Positions 1,418 to 12,358 of a DNA stretch of 64,000 nucleotides are shown in pieces. Positions within the stretch are counted from its first letter, which is position 1; the number at the start of each line of letters is the position of its first letter. The translations under genes were made by a program, and so were the position numbers. Source of the DNA: Salinisphaera sp. Q1T1-3 (lineage in GTDB: Bacteria > Pseudomonadota > Gammaproteobacteria > Nevskiales > Salinisphaeraceae); assembly GCF_003602005.1 (NCBI RefSeq), contig NZ_QZWD01000002.1, positions 248,001 to 312,000 on the forward strand, in the 5' to 3' direction. The notes under the pieces were generated by a model. The model was not told the DNA's origin, made no database searches, and was given only the letters and a program-made list of their open reading frames with translations.

Positions 1418-2737
1418 TCAGCCGCTTGGTGCCGGGCTCACCAGCGGCAGCCACAGGGCAAGCATCAACAGGGTGGCGATCAAGACCGGCGGCGTGAGCA
1501 GCAGGCCGATCTTCATGTACTGCCCCCAGCCGATGCGATATCCCTTCCTGGCCAGCACGTGCAGCCACAAGAGCGTGGCGAGGCTGCCGATCGGCGTGAA
1601 TTTCGGCCCCAGGTCGTTGCCGATGACGTTGGCGTAGATCATCAGCTGCGCGGTCTGGTGCGAAAGCTCGGCATGATCGATGGCCAGCGCCCCGAGGAGC
1701 GTGGCCGGCAGATTGTTCATCACCGAGGCCAGCCCGGCGGCCAGCAGCCCGCTGCCCACGGTCGCCAGGATCGTGCCCCGGTCGGCCAGCCATTCCAGCG
1801 CCTGTACGCCGTAGTCGGTCAGGCCGGCCCGACCGAGGCCGTAGACCACGATATACATGCCGACCGAGAACAGCACGATCTGCCAGGGGGCACCGGCCAG
1901 GATCGGTTTCAGCGCGATGTGTGCCCCGCGGCCCCGGCGCCAGAAGCGCGAGGCCAGGGCCAGCAGCAGGGCCGCGACGAGGCCCGTCACGAACGCGAAC
2001 GGCACGCCGCGTGCCGCCAGGGCGACGTAGGCGATCAGCAAGAGCACCAGTAGCGGCAGGGCGCTCACGAAGACCAGCCGATCGCGAATCGCCGCCGCCG
2101 GGGCGGACAGTTGTTCCAGCGGATAGCGCGTTGGGAGGCGACGGCCGAAGGCGAGCCAGAGCACGGCCAGTGTGCTGGCGATGGAAACCAGATTCACCGG
2201 GCCCATGACCTGCGCGTAATCGGTGAAGGTCAGCGAGAAATAGTTGGCGCTGACGATATTCACGAGATTGGAGATCACCAGCGGCAGGCTCGCGGTATCG
2301 GCGATGAAACCGGTGGCGATGATGAAGGCCAGGGCGGCGTCCGGCCGGAAATCCAGCCGCAGCAGGATGGCAATGACGATCGGGGTGAGCAGCAGGGCGG
2401 CGCCGTCGTTGGCGAACACCGCGGCGATGGCCGCGCCGAGCAAAACGATCAGTGGAAACAGGCGATGTCCGCGTCCACCGCCCCAGCGGGCGATGTGACG
2501 TGCCGCCCATTCGAAACAGCCGGCGTCGTCGAGAATGAGCGAGATGATGATCAGGGCGACGAACGTGAACGTGGCGTCCCATACGATATGCCAGACCGTG
2601 GCGATGTCGTCGATCTGCACGACCCCGGTGGCCAGCGCCAGCGCCGCCCCGCCGAGCGCGCTCCAGCCGATGCCGAGCCCCCGTGGTTGCCAGATCACCA
2701 GCACCAGCGTGGCGACGAAAATGGCGAAGGCCAGCAC
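1418..2737 (-). CDS. arsB: Arsenite efflux membrane protein ArsB
   Basis: ArsB exports arsenite/antimonite across the inner membrane. The protein is hydrophobic throughout with about 11-12 membrane segments. It opens with LAFAIFVATLVLVIWQPRG, the usual ArsB N-terminus, and has the conserved 'VMNNLPATLLG' loop and the 'NVIGNDLGPKFTPIGSLATLLW' stretch. I chose the GTG at 2735-2737 (440 residues, the family length). The ATG at 2791 would add 18 proline/arginine-rich residues and overlap arsH. With the GTG the gene begins one base after the arsH stop, so translation is probably coupled. Third gene of arsR-arsH-arsB. Confidence 0.92.
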   Translation of the reverse strand: MLAFAIFVATLVLVIWQPRGLGIGWSALGGAALALATGVVQIDDIATVWHIVWDATFTFVALIIISLILDDAGCFEWAARHIARWGGGRGHRLFPLIVLLGAAIAAVFANDGAALLLTPIVIAILLRLDFRPDAALAFIIATGFIADTASLPLVISNLVNIVSANYFSLTFTDYAQVMGPVNLVSIASTLAVLWLAFGRRLPTRYPLEQLSAPAAAIRDRLVFVSALPLLVLLLIAYVALAARGVPFAFVTGLVAALLLALASRFWRRGRGAHIALKPILAGAPWQIVLFSVGMYIVVYGLGRAGLTDYGVQALEWLADRGTILATVGSGLLAAGLASVMNNLPATLLGALAIDHAELSHQTAQLMIYANVIGNDLGPKFTPIGSLATLLWLHVLARKGYRIGWGQYMKIGLLLTPPVLIATLLMLALWLPLVSPAPSG

Positions 2738-2738
2738 G

Positions 2739-3464
2739 TCAGCGCGAGGCCGGCTGATTGACGCGGGCCGAGGTCTCGGCGGCCGACTCAAGGCGTTCCG
2801 AGTAACGATCGGTCAGATATTCACGCCGATCGCGCACGAGCCACGTGAACTTGACGAGTTCCTCGCACACATCGACCACGCGTCGGTACAGGGCCGATTC
2901 GCGCATCCGGCCGGCCTCGTCGAACTCCCCGAAGGCCTTGGGCACCGAGGACTGATTCGGGATGGTGACCATGCGCATCCAGCGGCCCAACAGGCGCATC
3001 TGGTTCACGGCATTGAAACTCTGGCTGCCGCCGGAAACCTGCATCACGGCCAGCGTCTTGCCCTGCGTGGGACGTATGCCGCCGAGTGCCAGCGGGATCC
3101 AGTCGATCTGTGCCTTCATGACTGCGGTCATCGCCCCGTGACGTTCGGGGCTGACCCAGACCATGCCTTCCGACCAGGACGCGGCGTCGCGCAGGACGCG
3201 CACACGGGGATGGTCGGCATCGACATCGTCGGGCAGCGGCAGGCCACTCGGGTCGAATCGCCGGACCTCGGCGCCGTAGCCGGTCAGAAGACGTTCGGCC
3301 TCGTCGGCGAGAAAACGCGAGTAGGAACGTGCCCGGAGCGAGCCGTGCAACACCAGAATGCGCGGCGCATGCGACGCTGCCGCCGGGCCGGCGAGGGCCG
3401 CGGTGTCGATCGGCTCGGCCGCGTTCGGCCAAATCTGGGGCGTATCGTGGAATCGGGTCGTCAT
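2739..3464 (-). CDS. arsH: Arsenical resistance NADPH-FMN reductase ArsH
   Basis: 241 residues, flavodoxin-like fold. ArsH is an FMN-dependent NADPH oxidoreductase that oxidises trivalent organoarsenicals and guards against redox stress. The phosphate-binding loop is [20 protein letters not shown] at about residues 37-56, and the ArsH signature [20 protein letters not shown] follows near residue 110. The N-terminal extension (residues 1-34) is normal for ArsH. It is the middle gene of the ars operon, 97 bp downstream of arsR and directly abutting arsB. Confidence 0.92.
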
Positions 3465-3561
3465 GGTCGGTTTCCCGGCAGGGGTATCGACAGGGGGATA
3501 GCGTGTCGCAGGGCGTCGCTCGCCACGGCCGTGGACGCGGCGCGTGGACGGCAGCGGCGGG

Positions 3562-3891
3562 TCAATCCGGCGCGTCGGTGGGGGCGGCCGGCCAGCACAG
3601 CGATGGGCGATTGCCGCAGCAGTCGTGCAATAGAAAACCCAGGATCGAGTCGACGGTCGCGAGATTCGCCCGATAGATGATCGAGCGGCTCTCGCGATGT
3701 GCGACCGCCAGACCGGCCCGTGTGAGCGTGCGCAGGTGCGTCGACAGCGTGTTGTGTGGCACGTCCAGCTGTCGCGCGATCTCGCCGGCGGGCAGACCGT
3801 TCGGCTCGTGGGCGATCAGCAGGCGCACCGTCTCCAGCCGGGTCTGCTGGGCGAGTGCGGCGAAACAATCGATGGCGTTGTTCTTGTCCAT
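3562..3891 (-). CDS. arsR: ArsR-family arsenic-sensing repressor
   Basis: 109 residues, winged helix-turn-helix. The recognition region is '[25 protein letters not shown]'-like at about residues 38-62. Near the C-terminus is [10 protein letters not shown] with Cys91, Cys92 and Cys99. A CC-x(5-6)-C site in this position is the As(III) sensor in the Acidithiobacillus-type ArsR proteins, unlike the CxC site of the plasmid type. It heads the arsR-arsH-arsB operon. The start codon directly abuts a palindrome at 3892-3911, so repression may also block initiation. There is no room for a standard SD, so the mRNA may be leaderless or the true start may be slightly further in. Confidence 0.88.
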
Positions 3892-4270: not shown

Positions 4271-5194
4271 TCAGGCGGGCTTGTCGGCCGTGAAGCGCGC
4301 GTGGATTTCCAGGATATGGATCAGGCTCGGCAGCAGTGCAGCCATGGTTTCGTCTGCGCCGCGCCGGCTGCCGGGAAACGTCACGACCAGCGTGTGCCCG
4401 ATGAACCCGGCCACGCCGCGCGACATCACGGCATAGGGGGAGCGCTTCTGGCCGAAGGCACGCGCGGTCTCCATGAGCCCCGGCATTGGCGTGGTCAGCC
4501 GCGGCTCGATGGTCTCGACCACCTGATCACGCGGGCCGATGCCGGTCCCGCCCACGGTGATCACCAGCGGTGTGTGGGCGGCCACGGCATCGTCCAGCGT
4601 TTGTGCCAGCGCCTCGGGTTCTTCGCGCAGCACCTGATAATCCAATGGCGCAAAGCCGGCCGAGACCAGGGCATCGGCCGTATTGCGCCCGGCGGCATCG
4701 CTCTTGGCGCCGTCGGCGGCGGGGTTGGAGACCATGTACACCGCAGCACCCAGCGGCTCGGCCAGTCGGCGGCTGTGATCGCTCTTGCCACCGGTCTTGT
4801 CGAGCAGCTGTGTATCGCCGATCGCCAGTTCGTCGGGCTCGGCGTAGGGCTTGAGCATGTCGTAGAGCGTCAGGGCGGCCATGCTGGCTGCGGTCAGTGC
4901 TTCCATTTCCACGCCGGTCGGTCCGATGGTGTGGACCTCGGCCCGAATCGCGACATGGTCATCGGCGATCTCGAAATGCACCTCGGCCGCGTGGATCGGC
5001 AGCGGATGGCACAGCGGCAGCAGTTCGTCGGTGCGCTTGGCCGCCAGAATACCGGCGATGCGGGCGCTGGCCTGCGGATCGCCCTTTTCCGTATCGCGCT
5101 CGGCGATACGCGCCAGACAGTGGGCGGGCGCATAGAAGCGTGCCGCTGCGGTGGCCGAGCGCAGCGTGTCCGGTTTCATGCCGACGTTTTTCAT
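4271..5194 (-). CDS. moaCB: MoaC-MoaB fusion for molybdenum cofactor synthesis
   Basis: 307 residues joining two pathway enzymes. Residues about 1-150 are MoaC (cyclic pyranopterin monophosphate synthase): KGDPQASARIAGILAAKRT, PLCHPLPI with the conserved His, and GVEMEALTAASMAALTLYDM. Residues about 155-307 are a MoaB/MogA-type molybdopterin-binding domain with VITVGGTGIGPRDQVVETIE and a PMPGLMETAR loop. MoaC acts just after MoaA, while MoaB/MogA adenylates molybdopterin at the end of the pathway. The gene lies 23 bp downstream of the moaD-moaE fusion on the same strand, so the two are probably one operon. No moaA is in the window. Confidence 0.9.
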   Translation of the reverse strand: MKNVGMKPDTLRSATAAARFYAPAHCLARIAERDTEKGDPQASARIAGILAAKRTDELLPLCHPLPIHAAEVHFEIADDHVAIRAEVHTIGPTGVEMEALTAASMAALTLYDMLKPYAEPDELAIGDTQLLDKTGGKSDHSRRLAEPLGAAVYMVSNPAADGAKSDAAGRNTADALVSAGFAPLDYQVLREEPEALAQTLDDAVAAHTPLVITVGGTGIGPRDQVVETIEPRLTTPMPGLMETARAFGQKRSPYAVMSRGVAGFIGHTLVVTFPGSRRGADETMAALLPSLIHILEIHARFTADKPA

Positions 5195-5217
5195 GGCGAG
5201 CGGGTATCAGTATGGGA

Positions 5218-5925
5218 TCAGGAGGAGCGCGGGCGCTCGGGCTGCGGTACGGCGGTGCCGTCGAGCCAGGCCTGCGTGCCGTCGACATAGTATTCGTTCT
5301 TCCAAACCGCCACGCGTGCCTTGAGTTCCTCGAGCGCGTGTTCGGCGGCGGCGAAGGCCGGGGCCCGATGCACGGCGCGTACCACGATATAGACGCTCAT
5401 CTCGCCCAGGCCGAGACGGCCGGTGCGATGCTGCATGCGACACGCGGTGATATCGAAGGCGTCCAGTGTTTCGCCCTCGATCTCGGCCATGGTGCGAGCG
5501 GCGAGCGGGCCATAGGCCGAATAATCCATGGCCGTGACTTCGCGCCCGGCGTTGGACAGACGCACGGTGCCACCGAACACGACCATCGCGCCGGCGGTGA
5601 TATCGGCGGTTTCGGCCATCAGCGCGTCGAGATCCAGCGGTGCCTCGGTCAGATGGGCCGTCGTGTCCTGGCCACCCGAGACCGGCGGAATGAGCGCGAT
5701 TTCGTCGCCGTCGGCCAGCTCGGTGTCGGCGGCGAGCAGGGTATCGCCACGGGCACAGGCAGTACGCGCCAGCAGGCCCGCGGCCGCCGGCCAGTGCGAT
5801 GCGGCGGCGGCAAGCAGCCCCGCGGGCGTCTGCGGGGGCGACAGGTCGAACCCGACCTGCTCGCCGCCCAGTTGGTCGACAAGCGCGCCGTGGCAGTCGA
5901 GCGTGATGTGAACGGTTTCGGCCAT
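5218..5925 (-). CDS. MoaD-MoaE fusion, molybdopterin synthase
   Basis: 235 residues. The N-terminal ~85 residues are a ubiquitin-like MoaD domain ending in ALIPPVSGGQ. The Gly-Gly is normally the free, thiocarboxylated C-terminus. A MoaE domain follows: 'DITAGAMVVFGGTVR', ...MEIEGETLDAF-type core, 'VRAVHRAPAFAAAEHALEELK', and the catalytic lysine stretch ELKARVAVWKNEYYVDG. The same domain order occurs in mycobacterial MoaX, where cleavage after the Gly-Gly has been reported. I infer a similar cleavage here. Start is the ATG at 5925; longer in-frame starts add only low-complexity sequence overlapping rpiA. No strong SD is visible. Confidence 0.88.
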   Translation of the reverse strand: MAETVHITLDCHGALVDQLGGEQVGFDLSPPQTPAGLLAAAASHWPAAAGLLARTACARGDTLLAADTELADGDEIALIPPVSGGQDTTAHLTEAPLDLDALMAETADITAGAMVVFGGTVRLSNAGREVTAMDYSAYGPLAARTMAEIEGETLDAFDITACRMQHRTGRLGLGEMSVYIVVRAVHRAPAFAAAEHALEELKARVAVWKNEYYVDGTQAWLDGTAVPQPERPRSS

Positions 5926-7498: not shown

Positions 7499-7599
7499 GG
7501 CAGCGGGCATCGCGATTGACTTGCCGGTAGGATAACGAAAAGCATGCGTTGCATTGTGGCCGTCGCGACCACCACGCACCGATCGACTGGGGGAAAGGG

Positions 7600-8637
7600 A
7601 TGGACATCTCGCAACTGCTGGCATTCTCGGTCAAGCAGGGCGCATCGGATCTGCACCTGTCGGCCGGCCTGCCGCCGATGATTCGTGTCGATGGCGACAT
7701 CCGCCGGATCAATCTGCCCGCGATGGAGGACAAGGAGGTCTTCGGGCTCGTTCAGGACATCATGAACGATCGGCAGCGCCGTGATTACGACGAGCATCTG
7801 GAAACCGACTTCTCCTTCGAGATCGATGGCTTGGCGCGCTTTCGCGTCAACGCGTTCCATCAGAACCGGGGCACCGGGGCAGTCTTTCGCACGATTCCTT
7901 CCGAAGTGCTATCGCTGGCCGATCTGGGCGCGCCGGCCAGTTTCGCCGAAATCGCATCGCTGCCACGCGGTCTGGTGCTGGTCACCGGGCCGACGGGGTC
8001 GGGCAAATCGACCACGCTGGCGGCGATGATCAACCACAAGAACCAGAACGAACTCGGGCATATCCTGACCATCGAGGACCCGATCGAGTTCGTGCACGCC
8101 TCGCAGAAATGCCTGATCAACCAGCGCGAGATCGCCCGCGACACCCATTCGTTTTCGGTCGCGCTGCGCAGCGCGCTGCGCGAGGATCCGGATACCATCC
8201 TCGTCGGCGAACTGCGCGATCTGGAAACCATCCGGCTGGCGCTGACCGCGGCCGAGACGGGGCATCTGGTCTTCGGCACGTTGCATACCTCGTCCGCGGC
8301 CAAGACGATCGACCGTGTGATCGACGTGTTTCCCGGCAGCGAGAAGGATATGGTGCGGGCCATGCTGTCCGAATCGCTGGTCGCGGTGATTTCGCAGACC
8401 CTGCTCAAGCGTCGCGACAGCGGCGGGCGGGTGGCCGCGCACGAGATCATGCGCGGCACGCCGGCGATTCGTAACCTGATTCGCGAAGGCAAGATCGCGC
8501 AGATGTATTCGGCGATCCAGACCGGTCAGACCGCCGGCATGCAGACGCTCGACCAGTGTCTGGCGGAGCTGGTGCGACGCGGTGAGGTCGAGCGCGAGGA
8601 GGCCCGTCGTCGCGCCGCCAATCGCGACGCGGTCTGA
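7600..8637 (+). CDS. pilT: Type IV pilus retraction ATPase PilT
   Basis: 345 residues. PilT hexamers at the inner membrane depolymerise type IV pili for twitching. The order is the PAS-like N-terminal domain (KQGASDLHLSAGLPPMIRVDG), Walker A GPTGSGKSTTLAAM, the Asp box 'TIEDPIEF', Walker B ILVGELRDLETIRLAL, and the His box TGHLVFGTLHTSSAAKTIDR. The C-terminal AIRNLIREGK region matches the retraction motif. ATG 7600 is chosen for its SD (GGGGGAAAGG) and the standard MDISQLLAFSVKQGAS start. It is the first of three related ATPases. Confidence 0.95.
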   Translation: MDISQLLAFSVKQGASDLHLSAGLPPMIRVDGDIRRINLPAMEDKEVFGLVQDIMNDRQRRDYDEHLETDFSFEIDGLARFRVNAFHQNRGTGAVFRTIPSEVLSLADLGAPASFAEIASLPRGLVLVTGPTGSGKSTTLAAMINHKNQNELGHILTIEDPIEFVHASQKCLINQREIARDTHSFSVALRSALREDPDTILVGELRDLETIRLALTAAETGHLVFGTLHTSSAAKTIDRVIDVFPGSEKDMVRAMLSESLVAVISQTLLKRRDSGGRVAAHEIMRGTPAIRNLIREGKIAQMYSAIQTGQTAGMQTLDQCLAELVRRGEVEREEARRRAANRDAV

Positions 8638-8651
8638 GCGGAGGCTGTTCC

Positions 8652-9821
8652 ATGGATCGTAGTCAGGCCACCAAACTGGTGACGGTGCTGCTCGAGCGGC
8701 TGGTCAACGAGGGCGGGTCGGATCTGTTCATCACCGCCGGGTTTCCGCCGGCGATCAAGAAGGACGGGCAGCTCACGCCGTTGATGGAGCGCCCTCTCAC
8801 CGAGGAACAATCGGCGTTGATGGTCCGGACCATCATGAACGATCGACAGACCCGCGAATTCGACGAATTCCGCGAGGCACAGTTCGCGATTTCGCCGGCG
8901 ATCGGGCGTTTCCGTGTCTCGGCCTTTGTCCAGCAGGGCCGCGTCGGGGCCGTGATCCGTGTCATCAATACCGAGATCCCGGCGTTCGAATCGCTCGGTC
9001 TGCCGCCTGCGCTCAAGACGCTGGTGATGGGCGAGCGCGGGCTGATCCTGTTCGTCGGTGCGACCGGCTCGGGCAAGTCGACCTCGCTCGCGGCCATGAT
9101 CGGCTATCGCAATGCCGAGTCGGCCGGCCATATCATCACGATCGAGGACCCGGTCGAGTTCGTCCATCCGCACGGCCGCTCGATCGTCACCCAGCGCGAA
9201 GTCGGCGTGGATACGCAGTCCTGGGAGAACGCGCTGAAGAACACGTTGCGCCAGGCCCCGAATGTCATCCTCATCGGCGAAGTGCGCTCGCGCGAGACGA
9301 TGGAATACGCGCTCAACTTCGCCGAGACGGGGCATCTGGTTCTGGCCACGCTGCATGCGAACAATGCCAACCAGGCGCTGGAGCGAGTGCTCAATTTCTT
9401 CGACGAGGGCAAGCGCGATCAATTGCTCATGGATCTGTCGCTGAACCTGCGGGCCATCGTCTCCCAGCGTCTCGTGCGTCGCGAGGGCGGCGGTCGGGCC
9501 GCCGCGGTCGAGATCCTGCGCGACACGCCGCTGGTCTCCGACATGATCTTCAAGGGCCGCATCGGCGAGCTGCGCGAGGTGATGGCACGCGGCAGAGAGC
9601 AGGGCATGCAGACCTTCGACCAGCATCTGTTCGATCTTTACGAGGCCGGCGTGATCGACCTGACCGAGGCACTGCGGCATGCCGATTCGCAGAACGAGCT
9701 GCGGTTGTCGATCAAGCTGCACGGCACGCGCGATGTGACCAATCTGCTCGAAGACGAGGATATCGACGCCTTGAGCGTCGACGATGAATCCAGCGAACAC
9801 CGGAGAGATCGTCGCTCATGA
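8652..9821 (+). CDS. pilU: PilT-dependent retraction ATPase PilU
   Basis: 389 residues, 14 bp after pilT. It has the PilU-type N-terminus (NEGGSDLFITAGFPPAIKKDG), Walker A GATGSGKSTSLAAM, TIEDPVEFVHP, Walker B VILIGEVRSRETMEYAL, and the His box ETGHLVLATLHANNANQALE, a PilU hallmark. The C-terminal tail after residue 340 is acidic. PilU boosts PilT-driven retraction. The stop overlaps the next gene's start in ATGA, so translation is coupled. Confidence 0.93.
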   Translation: MDRSQATKLVTVLLERLVNEGGSDLFITAGFPPAIKKDGQLTPLMERPLTEEQSALMVRTIMNDRQTREFDEFREAQFAISPAIGRFRVSAFVQQGRVGAVIRVINTEIPAFESLGLPPALKTLVMGERGLILFVGATGSGKSTSLAAMIGYRNAESAGHIITIEDPVEFVHPHGRSIVTQREVGVDTQSWENALKNTLRQAPNVILIGEVRSRETMEYALNFAETGHLVLATLHANNANQALERVLNFFDEGKRDQLLMDLSLNLRAIVSQRLVRREGGGRAAAVEILRDTPLVSDMIFKGRIGELREVMARGREQGMQTFDQHLFDLYEAGVIDLTEALRHADSQNELRLSIKLHGTRDVTNLLEDEDIDALSVDDESSEHRRDRRS

Positions 9822-10900
9822 ACGATCGACTGCGACTCGAGCCCTATCTCGAACTGGCCATGGACAAGGGCGCTTCCGATCTGTATTTCACTACGCATGC
9901 GCCGGTGATGATGCGGGTCGAGGGCCAGCTCCACCCGCTGCGTGCTGCCGAGGCGGCCACATTGACGCCGACCGTGCTCGAGCAACTCGTCCACGACACG
10001 CTCACCGAGGAACAGCGTGAGGTCTTCGCCGCCGAGCGCGAGCTCGACTTCGCGTTTCGCTACGGCATGCGCGGGCGTTTTCGTGCCAACGTGTTCCGCC
10101 AGCGCGGCTCGGCCGCCATGGTGCTGCGCAACATCGGCCATGTGCCGACGCTGGCCGAATTCGAGATGCCCGATGTGCTCGCGCGCCTGGCGATGCAAAA
10201 GCGTGGCCTCGTGCTGGTTGTCGGTGCGACCGGTGCCGGCAAGTCGACGACGCTGGCGGCCATGCTGAATCATCGCAACGAGAGCAGCTCGAACCATATC
10301 CTGACGATCGAGGATCCGGTCGAGTTCATGTTCCGGCACAAGCGCTCGATCGTGAACCAGCGCGAGATCGGCACCGACACCAACAGCTTTGCCCGGGCCC
10401 TGCGTTCGGCGATCCGCGAAGCCCCGGACGTCGTGCAGATCGGCGAGGTGCGTGATCACGAAACCGCCGATGCCTGTCTGCAGCTGGCCAATACCGGTCA
10501 TCTGGCGATGGCCACGATGCACGCCTCCAACACCTATCAGTGTCTCCAGCGACTGACCTCGCTGTTTCCCGAGAGTGCGCGGACCGCGATGTACATGGAT
10601 CTGTCGCTGAACCTGCGGGCGATCGTCTGTCAGCGGCTCGTGGCCACGCCCGACGGCAAACGCACTGCGGCCTACGAGATCCTGCTGAACACCCCGCATA
10701 TCGCGGATCTGATCCTGAATGGGCGGCTCGACGCGGTTGCCGAGGCCCTGTCGGTGGCCGACGGCGCGGACGGGGCGATCAGCTTCGACAATGCCCTGAT
10801 CGGTCTCGTGCAGGCCGGGCGCATTTCGGCGGAAGAGGCCCAGGCCCATGCCGACTCGCCGGACAACCTGCACAGCCGCATGATGTTCGATCAACGATGA
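9818..10900 (+). CDS. Third PilT/PilU-family ATPase
   Basis: 360 residues, translationally coupled to pilU by a 4-bp overlap. All motor motifs are present: N-terminal DKGASDLYFTTHAPVMMRVEG, Walker A GATGAGKSTTLAAM, TIEDPVEFMF, Walker B VVQIGEVRDHETADACL, and His box TGHLAMATMHASNTYQCLQR. The His box and DLSLNLRAIVCQRLV region are closer to PilU than to PilT, so this looks like a diverged PilU paralogue. It might tune retraction force or work with another pilin system. No pilin or assembly gene is nearby. Confidence 0.85.
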   Translation: MNDRLRLEPYLELAMDKGASDLYFTTHAPVMMRVEGQLHPLRAAEAATLTPTVLEQLVHDTLTEEQREVFAAERELDFAFRYGMRGRFRANVFRQRGSAAMVLRNIGHVPTLAEFEMPDVLARLAMQKRGLVLVVGATGAGKSTTLAAMLNHRNESSSNHILTIEDPVEFMFRHKRSIVNQREIGTDTNSFARALRSAIREAPDVVQIGEVRDHETADACLQLANTGHLAMATMHASNTYQCLQRLTSLFPESARTAMYMDLSLNLRAIVCQRLVATPDGKRTAAYEILLNTPHIADLILNGRLDAVAEALSVADGADGAISFDNALIGLVQAGRISAEEAQAHADSPDNLHSRMMFDQR

Positions 10901-10931: not shown

Positions 10932-11372
10932 ATGACCAAAAAACAGATCACCATCGGCTGGCGCGAGTGGGTCAGCCTGCCTGAGCTGGGCATCGATGCC
11001 ATCAAGGCCAAGATCGATACCGGCGCCCGGACCTCGGCGTTGCATACCTTTTCCCTGGAGACCGGGCGCGAACACGGGGCTCGGGTCGCGCGTTTCGGGG
11101 TGCACCCGATGCAGGGGGATGCGGAGACGATTGTGTGGTGCACCGCGCCGATCGTCGACGAACGCAACGTGCGCGACTCCGGGGGCCACCGCGAGTGGCG
11201 CTACGTGATCGCCACACCGCTGGCGATGGGCGATCGCCGATGGACGGTCGAGATTACGCTGACTGCGCGCGATACAATGCTGTTTCGGATGCTCGTCGGC
11301 CGCACGGCCATGCGCGATCTGTGTGTTGATCCGAGTGCTTCCTTTCTGACCGGGCGTTCCGGTTCCCAATAA
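10932..11372 (+). CDS. rimB: RimB-type retropepsin-like protease (DUF785 / 'zinc protease')
   Basis: 146 residues. The family has a retropepsin-like fold with the aspartic-protease motif [15 protein letters not shown] at about residues 26-40 (catalytic Asp in DTGA). Other conserved parts are '[14 protein letters not shown]' at the start and [12 protein letters not shown] near the end. In Pseudomonas the homologue RimB partners RimK, trimming poly-glutamate tails from ribosomal protein S6. That partnership is established knowledge; this gene sits 80 bp before rimK. A GC hairpin separates the two. Confidence 0.85.
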
Positions 11373-11375
11373 ATG

Positions 11376-11399
11376 CCGCCGGCGCCACGACGCCGGCGG
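11376..11399. other. Intercistronic hairpin between rimB and rimK
   Basis: CCGCCGGCG (11376-11384) pairs perfectly with CGCCGGCGG (11391-11399) around a 6-nt loop. It starts 3 bp after the rimB stop and has no T-tract. It could protect the 3' end of the rimB message or set the rimB/rimK ratio. Confidence 0.4.
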
Positions 11400-11452
11400 T
11401 TCGAATTCATCTTGACGCCGTCGGGCGTCGCCATCTGGCACGGGGTCTCGCC

Positions 11453-12358
11453 ATGCATATCGCCATCATGTCTCGGAATCGGCAGCTCTATTCGACGCGT
11501 CGTCTCATCGAGGCGGGCAAGGAGCGCGGTCACGACGTTTCGATCGTGGACCCGTTGCGCTGCTACATGAACATCGTGCCGCACGCGCCGGAGATTCATT
11601 ACAAGGGCCGCAAGCTCGAAGGCATCGACGCGGTGATTCCGCGTATCGGCGCCTCGATCACCTTCTATGCCACGGCCGTGCTGCGCCAGTTCGAGATGAT
11701 CGGTGTCTATCCGCTCAACGAGTCGGTTGCCATCTCCCGATCCCGCGACAAGCTGCGTTCGATGCAGCTGCTGTCGCGCAAGGGCATCGGCCTGCCGGTG
11801 ACCGGTTTCGCCCACAGCCCGGACGACACCGACGATCTGCTCGAACTGGTGGGCGGCAACCAGTACGTGATCAAGCTGACCGAAGGCACGCAGGGCAAGG
11901 GCGTGGTGCTGACCGAGACCCGCGGAGCCGCCGAGTCGGTGATCGACGCCTTTCGCGGCCTGGATGCCCACTTTCTGGTCCAGGAATACGTCAAGGAAGC
12001 CCGCGGCGCGGACATCCGCTGTTTCGTGATCGGCGAGAAGGTCGTCGCCTCGATGAAACGTCAGGGCAAGGACGGCGATTTCCGCTCCAACCTGCATCGC
12101 GGTGGCACGGCCAGCGTGGTCAAGATCACGCCTGAGGAGCGCTCGACCGCGGTCCGTGCCGCCAAGATCATGGGGTTGAACGTGGCCGGTGTGGACCTGC
12201 TGCGCTCCAACCACGGCCCGGTGGTCATGGAGGTCAATTCCTCGCCGGGCCTGGAAGGCATCGAACGCGCGACGAGCAAGGATATCGCCGGTCAGATCAT
12301 CGGCTTCATCGAGAACAACTCCAAGCGCGGCAAGACGCGTACCCGCGGCGCGGGATGA
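11453..12358 (+). CDS. rimK: RimK ribosomal protein S6 glutamate ligase
   Basis: 301 residues, the E. coli RimK length. An ATP-grasp ligase that adds glutamates to the C-terminus of ribosomal protein S6. Landmarks are [18 protein letters not shown] at the N-terminus, [36 protein letters not shown] (ATP-grasp glycine loop), [30 protein letters not shown], and the metal-binding [15 protein letters not shown]. The basic tail KRGKTRTRG is a minor extension. It lies downstream of rimB; a terminator follows. Confidence 0.95.

Follow-up and report, generated by a model that had tools for sequence, protein, structure and literature searches.

A fused MoaD–MoaE protein of Salinisphaera as a probable precursor cut by a JAMM metallopeptidase

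The window, a stretch of 64,000 nucleotides from Salinisphaera sp. Q1T1-3, carries two adjacent genes of molybdenum cofactor synthesis, moaDE and moaCB (Table 1). Its genome (G000) comprises 3.87 Mb in 59 contigs and is 99.97% complete. The initial annotation had described the two genes as pairwise fusions 23 bp apart, and the gene coordinates and Pfam domains bear this out. In MoaDE, a single open frame encodes the ThiS/MoaD fold (34.8 bits, cut-off 22.5) followed by the MoaE fold (107 bits, cut-off 23.4), which is the MoaX-type architecture; both halves score below the NCBIfam equivalog cut-offs (29.7 versus 66.15 bits for TIGR01682 and 64 versus 175 bits for NF007959, respectively). MoaCB consists of a MoaC domain (145 bits, cut-off 27) and a MoCF_biosynth domain (72.3 bits, cut-off 26.6). 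The closest named loci, L305 and L306, are from Salinisphaera and reach 67% and 69% identity over their best segments. Since 11 of the 14 genomes in the genus, G000 included, and both genomes of the sister genus have an open frame through the junction, a sequencing slip is excluded as the source of the moaDE fusion. The 23 bp gap, together with a moaE that immediately precedes moaCB in the same orientation in all 30 loci examined, makes it likely that moaDE and moaCB belong to one operon. Between the moa genes and a modC-like gene that is cut by the window start lie arsB, arsH and an ArsR-type regulator (1418–3891, reverse strand). On the forward strand, three consecutive PilT/PilU-family pilus ATPase genes occupy 7549–10900, all above the TIGR01420 cut-off and with a 4 bp overlap between the second and third, and a relative of the retropepsin-like peptidase RimB (10932–12358; 117.8 bits, below the cut-off of 200) directly precedes rimK.

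Table 1. Features of the moaDE–moaCB locus, in window coordinates
Feature	Position	Strand	Basis
moaDE, fused molybdopterin synthase (MoaD then MoaE), ATG, 235 aa	5218–5925	−	ORF and Pfam
MoaD half (beta-grasp sulfur carrier), residues 1–85, end PPVSGG	5671–5925	−	Pfam ThiS 27–85
Junction Ser83-Gly84-Gly85-Gln86-Asp87	5665–5679	−	pLDDT and Gly-Gly conservation
Predicted cut, Gly85/Gln86	between bases 5671 and 5670	−	inferred
MoaE half, Pfam residues 92–204	5314–5652	−	107 bits
moaDE/moaCB gap, 23 bp	5195–5217	−	gene coordinates
moaCB, bifunctional MoaC–MoaB, ATG, 307 aa	4271–5194	−	NF002947
MoaC half, residues 1–136	4787–5194	−	Pfam PF01967; alignment with solved MoaC 2ide, 1ekr
MoaB half, residues 152–291	4322–4741	−	Pfam PF00994

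The Gly-Gly end of the MoaD half is internal (PPVSGG-QDT, Gly84-Gly85-Gln86), as had been noticed from the sequence. All 13 fused orthologues recovered by a whole-protein search have PPVSGG unchanged, followed by a stretch of varying length and sequence. The residue that follows Gly-Gly is Gln in ten of them (nine CAG codons and one CAA) and Ala, Val and Ser in one each. Invariance across phyla, where fusions with PPVSGG make up 68 of 80 named loci, was not used as evidence because the scan pattern AL[IL]PPVSGG is present in every one of the 68. An internal start for MoaE is unlikely; in the window, no ATG, GTG or TTG occurs between Gly-Gly and residue 103, while CTG is present. The AlphaFold2 model of MoaDE, built from 37 sequences, has a mean pLDDT of 88.3, and its stretches of at least three residues with pLDDT below 50 are residues 83–87 and 231–235. 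The low values at the junction suggest flexibility in the model and are no proof of a cut. The MoaE half of the model finds its best match among solved structures in the MoaE domain of mycobacterial MoaX (9jbd), and the MoaD half matches other MPT synthase small subunits and SAMP1.

An internal Gly-Gly matters for the chemistry of the carrier, because the thiocarboxylate requires a free C-terminal Gly (PMC4326299, PMC4443979). MoaX, which the initial annotation had named as the precedent for a needed cleavage, is rightly chosen: it is cleaved behind the second Gly, and this cleavage is necessary (PMC4326299). Separate moaD and moaE genes elsewhere, which had been named as the counter-case, are rejected at the sensitivity of these searches. 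In the whole of G000, we found one MoaE and no second, and the ThiS profile search returned two ThiS/MoaD-fold proteins, both fused, and no free MoaD/ThiS carrier. Since this one protein joins the only MoaE and the only MoaD that we found, in a genome 99.97% complete, cleavage of MoaDE is very likely needed.

ThiS, the only other carrier found in G000, has the same Gly-Gly-Gln junction as MoaDE. It is fused to ThiG (L002:1498–2493, forward strand, G000:C16), with an internal Gly-Gly-Gly followed by Gln. Fused ThiS–ThiG is shared by the 14 genomes of the genus and the two of the sister genus, and the residue behind Gly-Gly is Gln in 15 of the 18 fused proteins read, the others having Met (G071), Ala (G003) and Asp (the second copy of G010). 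The only ThiF-family match in G000 is a rhodanese-MoeB (NF006444, 489.6 bits, cut-off 449).

Another contig of G000 encodes a JAMM protein of 142 residues (G000:C33:239725–240150) that matches Prok-JAB (PF14464) with 64.7 bits (cut-off 25). Its catalytic motif is intact, with EICG and HSHPRGEARPSRHD supplying the Glu and the HxHx7Sx2D motif. The second of the two Prok-JAB matches over the cut-off in G000 (26 bits) also has an HNH...S...D stretch and is RadC-like in sequence. JAMM scores 67.1 bits versus the desampylase cut-off of 130 (NF041370) and is not classed as a desampylase; among solved structures, sequence comparison relates it to 2kks, 2kcq and JAMM1 of 5lda/5ld9. The protein diverges fast (40–53% identity inside the genus), and its gene is linked neither to moaDE nor to thiSG. 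JAMM is the probable protease of MoaDE.

Prok-JAB matches over the cut-off occur in 63 of the 85 genomes of the order, and orthologues of JAMM with an intact motif in 23, namely all 17 of the family together with G001, G002, G003, G004, G011 and G064. The Prok-JAB protein of G027, although its motif is intact, was not counted as an orthologue because it scores 39.7 bits versus 169–219 for the 23; G060, the second match of G079 and the weak Prok-JAB matches of G052 and G053 were also left out of the counts. We read the JAMM loci over about 1.5 kb on each side, matching the neighbours, presumably prmC, proS and others, by tblastn. Outside the family, JAMM lies directly behind moeB in 10 of the 12 loci read (four of six with an intact and six of six with a decayed JAMM). 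In the 17 family genomes, no moeB was seen within about 1.5 kb of JAMM. G003 and G004 have no moeB at the JAMM locus and keep the order JAMM–proS, which is also found in 16 of the 17 family members. Because JAMM–proS is common to the family, G003 and G004, the JAMM of the family looks like the positional orthologue of the moeB-linked gene. Around MoaD–MoaE fusions of other phyla, no JAMM was found in 80 loci, searched up to 3 kb on each side.

Six orthologues of JAMM are decayed (G005, G006, G050, G051, G067 and G068): the catalytic Glu is lost and the metal motif is incomplete. They still lie directly behind moeB, and they score 82–107 bits versus 169–219 for intact ones against a profile of the latter. 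As read, the carriers end at Gly-Gly in all six of these genomes. The decayed orthologues are possibly non-catalytic partners of MoeB. Their loci are L061–L065 and L067, of which L063 belongs to G005, L061 to G006, L062 to G051, L065 to G050 and L064 to G068.

To set JAMM against the state of the carriers, we read the C-termini of MoaD and ThiS wherever these proteins turned up in the order. The carrier search relied on similarity to P0002 and P0004 (E up to 0.001), among the matches listed; the ThiS profile search covered G000 and 15 others, so that distant third carriers may be missed. The ThiS of G017 (contig end) and the MoaD of G036 (not found) and G033 (no match) are missing from the reading. 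Among the matches listed, the Gly-Gly of a carrier is blocked, i.e. not at the end, in 20 of the 84 genomes with a carrier: the 14 of the genus, the two of the sister genus, G001, G003, G008 and G010. In the genus and sister genus, ThiS–ThiG is fused in 16 of 16 genomes and MoaDE in 13 of 16. G001 has an unfused ThiS with a six-residue tail behind Gly-Gly (L187), G003 a MoaD with an 11-residue tail (L202) as well as a fused ThiS–ThiG, G008 two MoaD with tails of 27 and 6 residues (L284, L285) and no match to MoaE or MoaCB, and G010 a second, fused ThiS–ThiG beside a split copy. In the remaining genomes, a stop codon directly follows Gly-Gly, apart from the following cases. Nine MoaD of genus g10 end in Ser-Ala-Gly, not Ser-Gly-Gly (G013, G015, G018, G019, G020, G021, G022, G025 and G028; L207–L297 set); the penultimate Gly of MoaD is described as essential in E. 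coli. G069 has a weak third carrier that lacks Gly-Gly.

An intact JAMM orthologue is present in 18 of the 20 blocked-carrier genomes versus 4 of the 64 others with a carrier, among the matches listed. This association has a p of about 1e-12, with relatives that are not independent, and counted by genus it is weak (4 of 8 JAMM-bearing genera versus 1 of 13 others, p = 0.047). Four genomes whose carriers are not blocked also have an intact JAMM (G002, G069, G011 and G064); G004, which has JAMM and no carrier found among the matches listed, stands in neither group. For the blocked carriers of G008 and G010, no JAMM orthologue was found. The JAMM-like match of G010 looks like RadC, and base composition gives no support to contamination as the cause of this exception.

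The codons at the junction point to how the fusion arose. Split relatives read Gly-Gly-TAG, -TGA or -TAA, and a single transition separates CAG from TAG and CAA from TAA; a Gln behind Gly-Gly is thus what the loss of a stop would be expected to leave. In a four-gene tree (IQ-TREE; MoaCB rows missing for G001, G002 and G003), the three species of the genus with split genes group together (100/100) in a clade that is sister to the window's species and lies inside the fused ones, a nesting also seen in five of five first trees (FastTree). The sister genus is placed without firm support (89/94). One common fused clade is rejected by the AU test (p-AU 1.5e-5; the fused group was named after the first trees were seen), and the fewest changes are two. 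The simplest history would be a single fusion followed by a single re-split; if no re-split is allowed, the four-gene tree by our count calls for at least five independent fusions. The new stop stands exactly behind Gly-Gly. This fits a free Gly-Gly end that matters and is given little weight because it is a single event and an easy mutation; the exact position could be mutational, by one CAG to TAG transition. Among the matches listed for 274 genomes of the class, an uninterrupted match to both halves occurs only in G000 and in G080 of the same genus. Six candidates with long open matches (G096, G248, G228, G101, G179 and G319) all proved split on reading, and G194 has MoaE only.

The best explanation, to which we give a probability of about 0.7, is that MoaDE is a precursor which JAMM cuts at Gly85/Gln86 and which arose when the stop of the carrier was lost. 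The starting point would be moaD–moaE–moaCB as part of an ordinary molybdenum cofactor operon, in which the loss of the moaD stop directly behind Gly-Gly would have made one gene of moaD and moaE. The JAMM/MPN+ metallopeptidase would cut the fused precursor at Gly85/Gln86 and free the Gly-Gly end of MoaD. The one rhodanese-MoeB found in the genome would then adenylate and thiolate this end, and MoaD would pass the sulfur to cPMP, a product of the MoaC half of MoaCB, in MoaE. The later adenylylation of MPT would fall to the MoaB half and the separate MoaB, alone or shared, and ThiS would most likely be freed from ThiS–ThiG by the same JAMM.

That a MoaD–MoaE fusion needs a cut is an already known arrangement; added here are the protease candidate, the idea of a shared protease and the reversal of the fusion. 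MoaD–MoaE fusions occur in 775 of 33957 bacterial genomes (PMC11237513). The window's MoaDE shares with mycobacterial MoaX the domain order, the Gly-Gly at the junction and the MoaE fold. However, MoaX has Ser behind its Gly-Gly whereas MoaDE has Gln, its cleavage has been demonstrated whereas that of MoaDE is predicted, and M. tuberculosis also has moaD1, moaD2, moaE1 and moaE2 whereas MoaDE is the only MPT synthase found here. Deinococcus radiodurans has a single fused MPT synthase, DR2607, cut by DRJAMM, which is encoded elsewhere in the genome (PMC8832034); it belongs to another phylum, and here the protease has its role by inference and ThiS is fused as well. In Haloferax, HvJAMM1 likewise cuts SAMP1–MoaE, in which a ubiquitin-like protein is linearly fused to MoaE (PMC4443979), although that fusion is an experimental construct and the JAMM here reaches 67.1 of the 130 desampylase bits. 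Iyer and others (2006) described both MoaD–MoaE and ThiS–ThiG fusions as well as E1-rhodanese/JAB operons, and suggested that JAB might free a fused carrier (PMC1779556). These authors saw no JAB in the thiamine or molybdenum pathways, whereas here one Prok-JAB protein occurs in a genome with both fusions.

A wider reading, which we hold tentatively and at somewhat less than even odds, extends the role of JAMM to both pathways. One JAMM would serve as the shared maturation protease of MoaD–MoaE and ThiS–ThiG in the Salinisphaera family, mostly at Gly-Gly/Gln. The fusions would have been tolerable because a moeB-linked, carrier-trimming JAMM was at hand; the enzyme would have decayed into a pseudo-enzyme where carriers end at Gly-Gly, and one lineage would have re-split MoaDE at the cut site and kept the ThiS–ThiG fusion and the protease. 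If this is true, the syntheses of molybdenum cofactor and thiamine both hang on one protease, and junctions that need JAMM arose by the loss of a carrier stop codon. The literature searched, with subscription journals mostly outside it, yielded no report of a JAMM that cuts ThiS–ThiG or of the moaDE/moaCB pair in Salinisphaera. The genus offers a clean comparative case: moaDE occurs in fused and in re-split form, a second carrier is fused alike, and each species examined has one candidate protease. Here, one change in a stop codon would have created the need for a protein cut, which would later have been lost. The suggestion of 2006 that JAB/JAMM proteins mature fused bacterial sulfur carriers thereby becomes directly testable beyond well-studied microbes.

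Another protease might cut MoaDE at Gly-Gly, with JAMM kept for a task such as the removal of a ubiquitin-like conjugate, and the four genomes with intact JAMM and no blocked carrier, together with G004, would then find an easy place, as would the blocked carriers of G008 and G010; the protease of mycobacterial MoaX was also still to be identified in the 2015 paper (PMC4326299). We nevertheless consider this unlikely, given that moeB and JAMM are neighbours at 10 of the 12 loci read outside the family and that a JAMM makes the corresponding cut in Deinococcus (PMC8832034) and in SAMP1–MoaE of Haloferax (PMC4443979). That the fused protein works uncut, by an unusual thiolation of the internal Gly-Gly or with a second copy of the chain giving the transfer geometry, is very improbable. 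The fusion does persist in 11 of 14 species of the genus, but the demand for a free C-terminal Gly and the invariance of Gly-Gly in all 13 fused orthologues speak against an active uncut form. Covalently linked SAMP1–MoaE is also called inactive (PMC4443979), and the uncut G81A variant of MoaX was inactive, for which the authors caution that the mutation itself may contribute (PMC4326299).

The MoaC–MoaB fusion calls for a separate judgement. The initial annotation had read it as a channelled complex, and some form of coupling could be argued from the order, since MoaC and MoaB act at separated pathway steps and yet form one protein in 55 of 85 genomes, and moaE immediately precedes moaCB in each of the 30 loci examined. 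MPT synthase, however, carries out the intervening step, and it stands outside the MoaCB fusion. MoaCB is a called member of NCBIfam NF002947, the bifunctional MoaC/MoaB family (336 bits, cut-off 285, residues 1–297), and this membership and its full length in 55 of the 85 genomes (matches without stops, E 2.5e-80 or better) mark it as an ordinary fusion by its sequence. In the remaining genomes, the match is full-length and weaker (G037), covers the MoaC half (18, counted with or without a separate MoaB-like match) or is missing (11). MoaC–MoaB fusions have also been described in a published survey, which proposes that such MoaC fusions could stem from frameshifts within syntenic blocks (PMC11237513).

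The MoaC half (residues 2–140) aligns with solved MoaC structures. The MoaB half keeps GGTG, RD and PGS and has Glu for one conserved Asp and Asn for a less conserved one. The first Asp is kept in 26 of 30 aligned relatives and is Glu in G000, G073, G077 and G079, so the window's clade shares the family architecture but differs from it in this residue, whereas the second is Asn or Thr in 10 of 30. The Glu lies in VLREEPEAL (residues 188–196 of MoaCB, window 4607–4633), and we take the replaced Asp to correspond to catalytic Asp49 in MogA of E. coli. In this clade, the fused MoaB half may be weakened. A separate MoaB encoded elsewhere in G000 (TIGR02667, 257.7 bits, cut-off 222.4) keeps the Asp. 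With a curated family, a wide distribution, a separate MoaB and the lost Asp all against it, the channelled complex is not supported, and coupling of any kind is remote at best. Of the other relevant proteins of G000, MoeA scores 498.6 bits (cut-off 440), and a CinA-like protein scores under the NCBI cut-offs.
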